This document shows positions 563 through 51,378 of a DNA stretch of 64,000 bases, piece after piece. The DNA is from Idiomarina fontislapidosi (lineage in GTDB: Bacteria; Pseudomonadota; Gammaproteobacteria; Enterobacterales; Alteromonadaceae): positions 186,001 through 250,000 of the forward strand of contig NZ_QJST01000001.1 in NCBI RefSeq assembly GCF_003226255.1, given 5' to 3'. The position numbers and the translations under genes were made by a program. Positions within the stretch are counted from its first letter, which is position 1. Every line of letters starts with the position of its first letter. The notes under the pieces were generated by a model, which was not told where the DNA came from, made no database searches, and worked only from the letters and a program-made list of their open reading frames with translations.

Positions 563-2293
563 TTAATTGATAGGGTACATTGGTGGCAGAGGAGATGAAG
601 CTGTCCTCGTACTCGACTGCTGTTGCGCGTTTCGAATCGCTTGGTAGAGTTGTTTACCCCGTTGCCAACGGGCACGCTTTTTAGCTGCGTAAAGGGCCGT
701 TTGAAGCTGATTCAATTCGCTGCGTATGGCACTATCATTGGTAGCATTAAGCAACTTTGCTACGTCGCTAAGTGTGTTTACGCGCTGCTGGTACTTTTGA
801 TTAGCCCAACGCTTTAGGCTTTGCGTTGCCTGCTGCGGTTGGTTTTTCGCGCAGGCTTGCTGAAACGCTCGCCATGCTTCGCTTTTCGTCACTGGGTGAG
901 TCGCGTCAGTGGAGGTATTACTAACGTGAGCGACGCGACGCTTGTATAGCCATAGGTTGATCCCTAGGCTAATAAGGAGTGCGACGGCCAGTGCTAAAAC
1001 GACCCACAGCCAGTTATTGGGCTCTTGTTCGGTCGATTTTTGTTGTGTTGGCTCTGGTTTAGCTTCCTGTGTTTGGGGGCGAGGTTGTTCAGGCTGTTCG
1101 GGGATAGCTTTCTGCTGCGATTGGCTCATAGCAATCCCTTCGACATCAAACGAAAGCTCATCGGTGGTAGCGACGGCTCGCTGTTGGGTTTTGGTATTGA
1201 ACCAAGGCACGTCGATGCCTGGCAAGGTGATGTTTCCAGGCTGTTGCGGCACGATCGCGTATTTAATGGTTTTTTGCGCAATATTCACACCATTGCGAAC
1301 AAACTGATCGGTGTTCTCGTTGTCTGGATAAACACGTACGCTGTCTGGATAGTCATAGTCAATATCAGGCAATTGCTCCGGCTTCACGCCGACTGCTGTT
1401 AGCATCAGTGAAATCGAGATGGGTTCACCGACGTCGTATGTTTGTTTTTCAGGTGTAACGGTCTGGCTTATAGTGACTAATTCACTCGGCAACCAATGCC
1501 CCGTCCAATTTTGTGGAATGGGTTTGACCTGAACAGACTTTGTTTCTGCGATGGCGCTGACGGGTTGAGTATTTGAAAATGACGAGAAAATTGAGCGCTG
1601 ACCCGAGGCATAAACTTCACCATCAAAGCGTGCGCCCTCGATCTCAAATTCACCTGATTGGTTTGGGGTAATTTGATAGGTGCGTTGATAGACACGGTAG
1701 CGGCGACCGTTATTCATTTCGCTATATTCTTCGTCTTTACCGATTTGACGAATGTCTGCATTTTCCATCTCGGGTGGAATGAGGTTACCTTTATTCAGGT
1801 CTGCAGCAAGGTACAGCCTCACGATATAGTGAATAGGCTGCTGTAAGAATACACTCGAGGTATCTAGCGATGCATCGACAAAAGCCATTTTATCACTGCG
1901 CTTTGCTGCATCGGAGTCAGGCGCCACAACAGTCATCGTAATGGGATCAGAGTTAGCACCATCAAGACTGAAACTCGGTATTTGATAGTCCCCGGGCGTT
2001 TTTGCCACGAGTACCGTAGTAAACTGCGTGAGTTTCTTTAAATCACCATTCACTAGCGATGTCTGGCGACTGACGCTGGTGCGACCGACAACGAAGTCGC
2101 TCAGTAAAATATCTGGCTGAAATGCCGAGTTTGGCACATCGTCGTTAAATGTCACCGTTAGTACAAACGACTCTTTTGCAATTACAGGGTTCTTATCAAC
2201 GGTACTGGTTATTTTAGTCACCTCGGCGTATGCGGTCGCTGACGTGAACACTAACACTACGATGATACATAGATGATACCAACGACTTACCAT
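563..2293 (-). CDS. batD: BatD-like protein (oxygen tolerance / aerotolerance family)
   Basis: 576-residue membrane-anchored periplasmic protein. It begins with a signal peptide (about 1-24, ending A-Y-A-E), continues with tandem beta-sandwich domains typical of BatD, has one transmembrane helix near residues 424-446 (NNWLWVVLALAVALL), and ends in a cytoplasmic helical domain rich in Gln, Lys and Arg. A Pro/Gln/Glu linker precedes the membrane helix. It is the last gene of the leftward moxR-DUF58-DUF4381-batA-batB-batD operon, and its start overlaps the end of batB by 7 bp. Bat proteins were named for aerotolerance in Bacteroides; their biochemical role is unsettled, and a link to MoxR-dependent envelope stress or metal insertion is usually proposed. 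The family call is firm and the function is not. Confidence 0.85.
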   Translation of the reverse strand: MVSRWYHLCIIVVLVFTSATAYAEVTKITSTVDKNPVIAKESFVLTVTFNDDVPNSAFQPDILLSDFVVGRTSVSRQTSLVNGDLKKLTQFTTVLVAKTPGDYQIPSFSLDGANSDPITMTVVAPDSDAAKRSDKMAFVDASLDTSSVFLQQPIHYIVRLYLAADLNKGNLIPPEMENADIRQIGKDEEYSEMNNGRRYRVYQRTYQITPNQSGEFEIEGARFDGEVYASGQRSIFSSFSNTQPVSAIAETKSVQVKPIPQNWTGHWLPSELVTISQTVTPEKQTYDVGEPISISLMLTAVGVKPEQLPDIDYDYPDSVRVYPDNENTDQFVRNGVNIAQKTIKYAIVPQQPGNITLPGIDVPWFNTKTQQRAVATTDELSFDVEGIAMSQSQQKAIPEQPEQPRPQTQEAKPEPTQQKSTEQEPNNWLWVVLALAVALLISLGINLWLYKRRVAHVSNTSTDATHPVTKSEAWRAFQQACAKNQPQQATQSLKRWANQKYQQRVNTLSDVAKLLNATNDSAIRSELNQLQTALYAAKKRARWQRGKQLYQAIRNAQQQSSTRTASSPLPPMYPIN

Positions 2294-48929: not shown

Positions 48930-48963
48930 AGCCCTGTTGAGCTAGCTCAACGGGGCTTTTTTT
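48930..48963 (+). terminator. Intrinsic terminator after pnp
   Basis: Stem AGCCCTGTTGAG (48930-48941) / CTCAACGGGGCT (48946-48957) with one G-T wobble, loop CTAG, and T-tract to 48963. Closes the rimP-pnp unit. Confidence 0.93.
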
Positions 48964-48997: not shown

Positions 48998-49879
48998 ATG
49001 CGATTACTTTCTTTGGCGGCGTTGCTTACCTTCAGCTTATCTGGGTGTGCTACCCAATCCGCGAATCAAGCAAACGAAGCGGCCGCTCCAACGCCTAATG
49101 TCGTGCTGGCAGAGCCTGAGCAGGCGGAATTTCGCTATGAAATCGAGATCGCGCGTATTAATCAGTTACTGAGCGACGAGTCGCTATCGGACGAGGAATT
49201 AGCCTTCGCTTATTATCGCCGCGGTGCACTTTTTGATGCCTTAGGTTTGCGAACTCTATCACGCATGGACTTTATGCGTGCGATTGAAATTAAACCGCGG
49301 TTGGCTGATGCATACAATTATCTCGGTATACAGTATACCGAGCTAGGCGAATTTGACTTTGCTTTTGAGGCACTCGATTCTGCCCTCGAGCTTGACCCTG
49401 AGCATCCTTACGCGTTGCTGAATCGAGGCATTGCCGAATATTACGATAACCGCATCAAATTTGCCGTCAATGACTTTCAGCAACACCTCAAGAACGATCC
49501 GAGTGACCCATATCGCGTGATTTGGCTATTCTTGGCACAATACCGTGAGTCACCCAACGAAGCTTTGAATGCACTGGCGAGCAATAAGCAAGCGATTGAT
49601 GAAGATGACTGGGCAAACCGAATCATTGAGCTCTACTTGGGCGAATTGAGTGAAGTCGAATTTCTCGAACAGCTTACGACTCAGTTGCGTGGCGACGAAA
49701 CCTTGGCTGAACGGTTGTGCGAGGCTTATTTTTATCTCGGAAAATACAGCCAGCGACAACAGCAATGGAGTAAAGCAGCCAATTATTTTAAGCTCGCACT
49801 CACTACCAATGTGCATGAGTTTGTTGAGCACCGTTACGCTGATATTGAGTTGGAGCAGACGCGTAAACAACTGCAATGA
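48998..49879 (+). CDS. nlpI: Outer-membrane lipoprotein NlpI (TPR adaptor)
   Basis: 293 residues (E. coli 294). The lipoprotein signal ends L-S-G-C with C17 lipidated. TPR units are clear: EELAFAYYRRGALFDALG, ADAYNYLGIQYTELGEFDFA, PYALLNRGIAEYYDNR and a C-terminal repeat YFYLGKYSQRQQQWSKAANYF. In E. coli NlpI is an adaptor that presents the endopeptidase MepS to the protease Prc and organises peptidoglycan enzymes. It lies downstream of pnp as in Enterobacteria, behind the pnp terminator. Its last four bases overlap the next gene (ATGA), so the downstream metallopeptidase is likely made with it. Confidence 0.93.
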   Translation: MRLLSLAALLTFSLSGCATQSANQANEAAAPTPNVVLAEPEQAEFRYEIEIARINQLLSDESLSDEELAFAYYRRGALFDALGLRTLSRMDFMRAIEIKPRLADAYNYLGIQYTELGEFDFAFEALDSALELDPEHPYALLNRGIAEYYDNRIKFAVNDFQQHLKNDPSDPYRVIWLFLAQYRESPNEALNALASNKQAIDEDDWANRIIELYLGELSEVEFLEQLTTQLRGDETLAERLCEAYFYLGKYSQRQQQWSKAANYFKLALTTNVHEFVEHRYADIELEQTRKQLQ

Positions 49880-51054
49880 AGCGAATTGTTGCTTTCATCG
49901 GAGTCGCCCTTGGGGTGACTCTCATCCCTCACGACTCTCACCGTACTGCAGTACAAATTCGTTGGGCCCATGCACTATCGAACAACGCTGACGCCCAATT
50001 CGAAGTTGCCGAGGCGTACTGGCAGCAACAGCACGCCAGCGCCGCCTTGTATTGGTGGGAGAAAGCCGCAGTCGGGGGCTCAGCCGCTGCTTTAGCGCAG
50101 CTGCGAGCTAGGTTTCCTCAGCACCAAAAGCGATGGCTCGAGATTGCTGCAGAGCAGGGCAGTCCCACGGCAAAGCAGCAACTCGCCTCACTGGCGTTAA
50201 ATGATGCGACGCTGTCTTGGGCTGATTGGCAGCTTCGTTTCTCGGCGCATGCGATGTCGGATGCAGCGTATGCTCTGTTGAGCAGTAACCAACCCCAGCG
50301 CTGTGATGTCACGATACCTGTGATTGCCCGTTCGAACAGCGATAAAGCACGCTACGTCACCTTGCTCGAGGCTGTTTCTACGATGCAACCTGAGACGCCA
50401 CAGTATAGGCTCTGCTTTGCATGGCAAACACGCGCTGAACAGCACTGTACCGTGAAAGATAATCAGCAGGCAGAGTGCAAGGTGAGCTCTGACACCACGT
50501 CGCCACGTATTATTTTAGCGGCAGCAGGACGTTCCTACACGCGCCCGCACATGATGGTACTTGGACGAGGCGCCACGGCTGAGGTTATTCGGCACGAGTG
50601 GGCGCACTGGCTTGGATTTGCAGATGAATACGCAATGCGGATGCCTTATGCACAGAATTTTTGTATGGGACGTTATGCGAATGACCCCGTCAATGTGGTT
50701 GTCACCCACCAAAAAATCGTTTCTACAGACGCATTAAAGGCGCTTTGGCAAGGTTTGCCATGGCGTGCTCATGTGGATGATTGGCGTGATTTAGCGCAGC
50801 CATTAGGTGACCATCGGTGGCAACTGGGGTCGGCGGATACGCAGGCGGTCGGGTTATTTGCTACGGACACCTGTGCCGCTGTCTCGGGTCACTATGCCTG
50901 GAAACCCGTGGCGCAGGAAACCTTGATGGAGCGCCACCAATCCGATGTGTGGCCGAGCGTATACCGCTTATTACAGCAACCGCAGCTATTGTTGGATAGC
51001 CAATTGGGCGAGCATCAAAACCGGACACAAGAACGCAAAGAACCACACCAGTGA
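49876..51054 (+). CDS. Putative exported Sel1-repeat / metzincin-like metallopeptidase coupled to nlpI
   Basis: 392 residues; I do not recognise a named family for the whole. An N-terminal hydrophobic segment (KRIVAFIGVALGVTLI) suggests export or membrane anchoring. Residues about 36-108 look like Sel1-type repeats (ADAQFEVAEAYWQQ, AALYWWEKAAVGG, RWLEIAAEQGSPTAKQQL). The C-terminal half has H240-E-W-A-H244-W-L-G247-F-A-D250-E-Y, an HExxHxxGxxD zinc motif resembling metzincins and the ADEY ending of M64 peptidases. Six cysteines after residue 140 suit disulfides in the periplasm. It overlaps nlpI by 4 bp (ATGA), and its 3' end overlaps the convergent MAPEG gene by 69 bp. A role in proteolysis with NlpI is inference. 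Confidence 0.72.
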   Translation: MKRIVAFIGVALGVTLIPHDSHRTAVQIRWAHALSNNADAQFEVAEAYWQQQHASAALYWWEKAAVGGSAAALAQLRARFPQHQKRWLEIAAEQGSPTAKQQLASLALNDATLSWADWQLRFSAHAMSDAAYALLSSNQPQRCDVTIPVIARSNSDKARYVTLLEAVSTMQPETPQYRLCFAWQTRAEQHCTVKDNQQAECKVSSDTTSPRIILAAAGRSYTRPHMMVLGRGATAEVIRHEWAHWLGFADEYAMRMPYAQNFCMGRYANDPVNVVVTHQKIVSTDALKALWQGLPWRAHVDDWRDLAQPLGDHRWQLGSADTQAVGLFATDTCAAVSGHYAWKPVAQETLMERHQSDVWPSVYRLLQQPQLLLDSQLGEHQNRTQERKEPHQ

Positions 51055-51378
51055 GCGCAGCTTATCCCAGTTAAGTAGGTAAAGAATGTTGTAGGCGATA
51101 CGCAGTGCAATAAAACTCACCGCTAAAGTGACTGCATGCGGACTGACCTGTTCACTTGCGAGGTTAGCGAGTATCGCAGCAGCATAAAGAGGAAAGGCTT
51201 CATAGGCATTGTAATGGGCAGCCACCGCACGCGCACCTGCGCCTGTCAGACGTGATTGCTGAGCCCGTGGATGGTGATTGTCATAGCGGCTTTCGCGGTT
51301 TTGAAAAAACACCACAGGTGCCTTAGCCAATACTGGCAAGACACCTGCAATTAACAAACACCACAGTAATGTGCTCAT
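50986..51378 (-). CDS. MAPEG family membrane protein
   Basis: 130 residues with four hydrophobic segments (about 3-22, 60-75, 82-98 and 108-127). The motif between helices one and two, [26 protein letters not shown], is the recognisable MAPEG signature (R-A-x-x-A-x-x-N-x-x-E). MAPEG proteins include glutathione transferases and peroxidases of eukaryotes, while bacterial members of this short type mostly have no assigned activity. Its start overlaps lipA's end by 4 bp, placing it last in the leftward lipB-lipA unit. The 3' end runs 69 bp antisense into the preceding metallopeptidase gene. Confidence 0.85.

Follow-up and report, generated by a model that had tools for sequence, protein, structure and literature searches.

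A family-wide nlpI-linked gene encoding a putative metzincin-like zinc protease in Alteromonadaceae

Introduction

The gene that directly follows nlpI in Idiomarina fontislapidosi raises the question of whether its product is a zinc protease and whether this protease works together with NlpI. In the available text of two studies, NlpI of E. coli is presented as an adaptor of peptidoglycan hydrolases (endopeptidases) and of Prc (PMC7049810, PMC11211486). The window, that is, the whole stretch of 64,000 nucleotides analysed here, had been described in a preliminary way as containing a gene translationally coupled to nlpI, the product of which, with Sel1-like repeats and a combination of domains not recognised as a described family, was proposed to be a putative periplasmic metallopeptidase and a lineage-specific partner of NlpI. 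Here we follow this gene and its product, referred to below as the candidate protease, through the genomes of the GTDB family of the window (Alteromonadaceae).

Results

Gene pair and protein anatomy

The features of the locus are collected in Table 1. The assignment of the upstream gene as nlpI was borne out by model NF008391 (E 2.9e-104), and the overlap of its stop codon with the start codon of the downstream gene is present in the window as described. The reading frame of the candidate protease is intact and starts with ATG. Since a terminator-like hairpin separates nlpI from the preceding gene, which we take to be pnp, nlpI and the protease gene may form a predicted two-gene unit; terminator-like sites in this region number five, against 3.3 expected in shuffled sequences. 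No promoter-like site directly 5' of nlpI was listed in the scan of the region.

Table 1. Features of the nlpI locus, with positions counted from the first nucleotide of the window
Feature	Position	Strand	Evidence
nlpI, TPR lipoprotein adaptor, 293 aa	48998..49879	+	NF008391, 348.7 bits vs. cut-off 250; ORF list
ATGA shared by the nlpI stop and the start of the downstream gene	49876..49879	+	ORF coordinates
Putative NlpI-linked zinc metallopeptidase, 392 aa	49876..51054	+	ORF; family-wide conservation
Hydrophobic segment at the N-terminus, residues 4-17, probably a signal anchor or signal peptide	49885..49926	+	Hydropathy 2.76; some relatives with a lipobox near the N-terminus
Sel1/TPR-like helical solenoid, residues 25-108	49948..50199	+	Profile match to solved Sel1/TPR proteins; model helices, confident at 31-100
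Metzincin-like peptidase domain, residues 136-374	50281..50997	+	Domain alignment; genome profile searches
Zinc motif HEWAHWLGFADEY, H240-Y252	50593..50631	+	H240, E241, H244, D250, E251, Y252 invariant in 101/101
M351, candidate Met-turn methionine	50926..50928	+	M in 66/101, L in 35/101
Terminator-like hairpin plus T run in the presumed pnp/nlpI gap, possible upstream limit of a two-gene unit	48930..48957	+	12 pairs; consensus match only

The hydrophobic N-terminus noticed earlier in the window protein is distinct (best 14-residue mean hydropathy 2.76), and a strongly hydrophobic stretch of 14 residues occurs between residues 1 and 90 of the open frame in 91 of 101 relatives, the remaining 10 frames lacking one at the threshold used. 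About seven of the 101 (L023, L024, L043, L051, L054, L060, and L133), as judged by eye, contain a plausible lipobox in the form LAGC, LSAC, LTGC, or VAGC, followed in six of these seven by E, Q, or S. These hydrophobic N-termini and lipoboxes make the predicted export of the protease likely.

In the case of the Sel1-like repeats, the earlier proposal is supported by the profile of the group and only weakly by the single sequence. While the window protein alone scores 10 bits with the Pfam Sel1 model, under the cut-off of 30.7, the profile built from 28 relatives finds solved Sel1/TPR proteins with a best E-value of 2.6e-9 over profile positions 41-119. In the full-length AlphaFold model, residues 31-100 form confident helices (means of 10-residue blocks 79-91). 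The mean pLDDT of this model and of a domain-only model, both built from only two input sequences (the window protein and L061), amounts to 44.1 and 34.7, respectively; nearly all of the peptidase domain lies below 50 in the former, as do 217 of 246 residues in the latter. By profile, the candidate protease thus shares a helical solenoid with Sel1-like repeat proteins, but its solenoid is short, some members lack the region, and conservation resides in the peptidase domain. The N-terminal region varies among relatives, with fewer than 80 residues ahead of the position of C143 in 12 of 101. Members from genus g27 (L009-L013, L015) are short, about 275-313 aa, and have no clear Sel1-like region.

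All six cysteines that had been counted in the window protein (C143, C180, C191, C201, C263, and C333) fall within residues 136-374. C191 and C201 occur together in 93 of 101 relatives and are jointly absent from eight, and never does one of them occur alone; the pair C263 and C333 is complete in 100, and the pair C143 and C180 in 98. This pattern suggests three disulfides, of which only the 191/201 pair is well supported, through its joint loss, because a disulfide in an oxidising compartment would give such a pattern.

Zinc motif and comparison with known peptidase families

The zinc motif at H240-Y252 is confirmed, and its HExxH part together with D250, in agreement with the metzincin motif HExxHxxGxxH/D, is found in all 101 relatives. 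Outside the motif, C263 and N273 are likewise invariant. G247 is conserved in 99 of 101 relatives, which is also the number with the full HExxHxxGxxDEY; in L124 and L134 the motif glycine is lost (HEFLHIFRFMDEY and HEVGHWLNLYDEY, respectively) and all candidate ligands are retained. Such constancy of the motif residues, set against a median pairwise identity of the peptidase domain of 26% (97 of the relatives), indicates that the motif is more than a chance occurrence, an explanation that we reject. The catalytic capacity of the protease is well supported by this conservation.

No described family was found for the candidate protease, nor any Pfam or NCBIfam model that claims it, in line with the preliminary description of its domain combination. 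The window protein matches nothing in Pfam but Sel1 and nothing in NCBIfam at E of at most 5, and gives no match to the models of M64 (PF09471) or M6 (PF05547, TIGR03296). At E of at most 1, eight of the 28 relatives match Pfam M64 and six match Pfam M6, and the NCBIfam M6 domain model is matched by 22. Matches to M64, M6, and reprolysin models lie under the curated cut-offs, and none of the 27 relatives scored out of the 28 (L024 left out) reaches a Pfam metallopeptidase cut-off. The best single Pfam metallopeptidase score, 22.5 bits for L030 over about 86 residues, is to M64, with a cut-off of 26; PF05547 comes narrowly short with 21.6 bits for L010 against 22, and TIGR03296 reaches 23.0 against 110.8 among ten members scored. 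Nor is the snapalysin model, with its cut-off of 300, matched at that level.

Alignments of the domain profile with solved metallopeptidase chains are confined to the surroundings of the motif. The M6 chain 4yu5, which reads HAxxH, and snapalysin (M7) 1c7k have the HExxHxxGxxD spacing of the candidate protease, but these matches span only about 20-40 positions around the motif and remain below the cut-offs. M64 (IgA peptidase), the family named in the preliminary description for comparison, is resembled in the ADEY that follows the histidines; however, the M64 chains 4df9 and 3p1v have one residue more between the second histidine and G-x-x-D-E-Y. On these scores and alignments, we place the protease outside M6, M7, and M64 and term it metzincin-like. 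A putative new family of zinc proteases, likely to be remotely related to M6 or M64, is the best reading of its sequence. Our search of the literature on NlpI and metallopeptidases, a scope outside which most subscription papers lay, found no description of the gene; the available text of PMC7327166 concerns rhizobial proteins and not the nlpI-linked protease gene.

Distribution across genomes

The peptidase-domain profile matches 193 of the 196 genomes of the family, including all 184 of good quality (completeness of at least 90%, contamination of at most 5%), and the single window protein used as a query detects relatives in 161 of the 196. The NlpI model matches all 196 and exceeds its cut-off in 191. 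The three genomes without the protease (G029, G048, and G092) are 81-85% complete; given that nlpI itself is only weakly matched in them (best E-values 1.9e-7, 9.6e-40, and 1.4e-6, respectively), a single assembly gap probably accounts for both genes. In G018, a second locus away from the first copy (C1:984130-984573) aligns with peptidase-profile positions 6-152 at 48 bits within a frame of 825 residues, a partial domain which indicates that the peptidase domain is not strictly tied to nlpI.

In the order sample (394 genomes), the domain profile matches 35 genomes of the family itself, while among the 359 others 31 match at E of at most 0.01, each over no more than 48 positions and nearly all around the zinc motif. 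No genome of the family stands at the head of the misses listed, beyond which there are 308 further genomes without a match. The full-length profile matches 222 of the 394 genomes, and those listed from beyond the family fall largely within the Sel1 part of the profile. The class sample (369 genomes) yielded matches in three genomes of the family and in five others at 18.9-23.2 bits. These five loci (L097-L101) were considered as relatives and rejected as other proteins with metzincin-like motifs; no nlpI match was found in the stretch fetched around them, and L097, L099, and L100 reach no Pfam cut-off. L099 aligns weakly with the domain profile (about 107 positions, 21 bits). Its 248-aa open frame (1336-2079, minus strand), from another gammaproteobacterial family, contains HECGHLLGAYDEY and later SIMG, and may belong to a further undescribed group of metzincins. 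A genome scan with the single protein returned one locus, in Idiomarina baltica (60% identity), and no relative was found in the viral contigs scanned with a closer alignment.

Linkage to nlpI

Of 101 distinct loci, 100 have the protease gene preceded by nlpI in the same orientation, a count that leaves small intervening ORFs possible at individual loci; in the exception, L136, the locus starts at a contig end. This set, from which the five weak class-level loci had been dropped beforehand, is a non-random one of best matches or loci picked by genus, and covers 51 of 52 sampled genera according to genus labels. The gap between the two frames, counted from the nlpI end up to the first base of the following one, ranges from -263 to +272 and is within 100 bases in 98 loci. 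The survey of nlpI neighbourhoods proposed earlier thus found the pairing across the family, and together with the 193 of 196 family genomes this rules out an oddity of one genome and agrees with a lineage-specific putative metallopeptidase linked to nlpI. The proposed translational coupling stands for the window and its close relatives and does not extend to the family, since the four-base ATGA overlap is found in only four of the 61 distinct loci with listed starts (L001, L002, L003, and L061); in the others, the nearest start codon overlaps in another way or sits up to some tens of bases downstream.

The genes downstream of the pair vary, the two largest ORF clusters accounting for 24 and 22 of 97 loci (about 1.5 kb fetched). 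Pairwise identities of NlpI and the protease are correlated (r 0.80, a value reached in 0 of 999 permutations; 97 pairs), as is to be expected because shared descent alone would yield this, and NlpI is more conserved than the protease domain (median identity 43% vs. 26%). By its linkage, the protease is a strong candidate for a partner of NlpI.

Prc and MepS-type proteins

Prc (PF11818) was found in the genome of the window and in 57 of the 59 family genomes sampled. The genome of the window, despite having NlpI and Prc, gave no NlpC/P60 match; such matches occur in 29 of 98 family genomes. A strong match in a short frame of MepS/MepH type is limited to one of these 98 (G012, E 9e-31, 164 aa); 25 have NlpC/P60 in frames of 443-576 aa, a single genome has it in a 379-aa frame, and weak matches in frames of 163-204 aa are seen in five, three of them among the 25. 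In the non-family genomes of the order, NlpC/P60 matches below 1e-20, counted by eye, are present in 46 of 84 and missing in 38. Loss of MepS was considered as the driver of the protease and rejected, since it is also common outside the family and so does not explain the protease.

Discussion

Our preferred reading, which we hold at a probability of about 0.5, is that the gene encodes an envelope-anchored, metzincin-like zinc protease of an undescribed family that works with NlpI. We infer its export, zinc binding, activity, a transcript shared with nlpI, and contact with NlpI. The exported protease would be held at the envelope by the N-terminal hydrophobic segment, in some genera by a lipid anchor, and braced by up to three disulfides. 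The N-terminal region that precedes the catalytic domain in most members, Sel1/TPR-like in the window protein, may act as a docking arm. Zinc would be bound by H240, H244, and D250, and water would be activated by E241. Made together with the outer-membrane adaptor NlpI, the protease would most likely work with it: NlpI would gather envelope clients, at least one of which the protease would cut, forming a second proteolytic arm next to Prc. That cell-wall hydrolases are among these clients is our guess.

The proposed arrangement resembles the NlpI-Prc-MepS system of E. coli in that family genomes possess NlpI and, in nearly all of those sampled for it, Prc, and in that an envelope protease is tied to a TPR lipoprotein adaptor, here as judged from linkage. 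It differs in that the nlpI-linked gene encodes a protein with a zinc motif and not Prc, and in that a strong short MepS-type match is confined to a single family genome and missing from that of the window. A further analogue is the LbcA-CtpA pair of Pseudomonas aeruginosa, where CtpA is a carboxyl-terminal processing protease of the serine type. In this pair, according to the available text of PMC12569750, an envelope protease with a TPR-containing partner controls cell-wall endopeptidases, and LbcA is not homologous to NlpI.

An operon passed on by descent could also account for the adjacency and the correlated identities, with no physical partnership involved. An active envelope metalloprotease may merely be co-transcribed with nlpI and have an unrelated job, such as quality control of lipoproteins or outer-membrane proteins; we regard this as a serious possibility, if still a doubtful one, to which the restriction of the four-base overlap to one clade adds some weight. 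Neutrality is, however, hard to invoke where the junction with nlpI is kept in 100 of 101 loci and the downstream gene varies between groups. It is improbable that the protein is non-catalytic or regulatory, with an HExxH helix retained solely for structural reasons or for binding metal. The candidate Met-turn residue is indeed not strict, and the fold is a putative one at the low pLDDT of the models, but E241 and the three candidate ligands are unchanged in every relative at the low domain identity given above. Pseudo-enzymes often lose the catalytic glutamate or the metal ligands, which counts against such a role.

Known zinc peptidoglycan hydrolases have other folds (M15, M23, and M74), and a motif of the HExxHxxGxxD type is that of protein-cutting metzincins. 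Motif and fold class argue against a zinc endopeptidase for peptidoglycan that docks on NlpI and replaces the mostly missing MepS. We consider such an enzyme unlikely, even though NlpI of E. coli docks peptidoglycan endopeptidases, in the available text of the two studies (PMC7049810; PMC11211486), and a strong short MepS-type match is so rare in the family. Hardly any likelihood is left for a secreted nutrient or host-directed protease of M6/M64 type: the HExxHxxGxxDEY spacing is that of a solved M6 chain and the best scores approach the M6 and M64 cut-offs, but none of the 27 members scored out of 28 reaches these cut-offs, the gene is present in nearly the whole family and linked to an envelope housekeeping gene, and some members have a lipobox.

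Under our preferred reading of an NlpI-associated zinc protease, a wider proposal can be advanced only tentatively. In this one large marine gammaproteobacterial family, NlpI might act mainly as a docking platform for a zinc protease of its own, a second NlpI-directed proteolytic arm alongside Prc that is retained despite the nearly general absence of MepS, the classical client. The gene occurs in nearly every sampled genome of a bacterial family, yet we found no Pfam or NCBIfam model that covers it. Its fixed place beside nlpI offers a testable lead on the role of NlpI where MepS is missing, and a lead on the diversification of envelope proteolysis around TPR lipoprotein adaptors.

As for the surroundings of the pair in the window, a convergent ORF of 130 aa (50986-51378, minus strand), which we assume to resemble a MAPEG-type membrane protein, shares 69 bases with the 3' end of the protease gene, and a cluster of similar ORFs is present in 13 of 97 loci. 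The segment 51375-54563 on the minus strand presumably comprises lipA- and lipB-like genes, a small ybeD-like ORF, and a D-Ala-D-Ala carboxypeptidase-like gene; a cluster of lipA-like ORFs is found near the protease gene in 22 of 97 loci.
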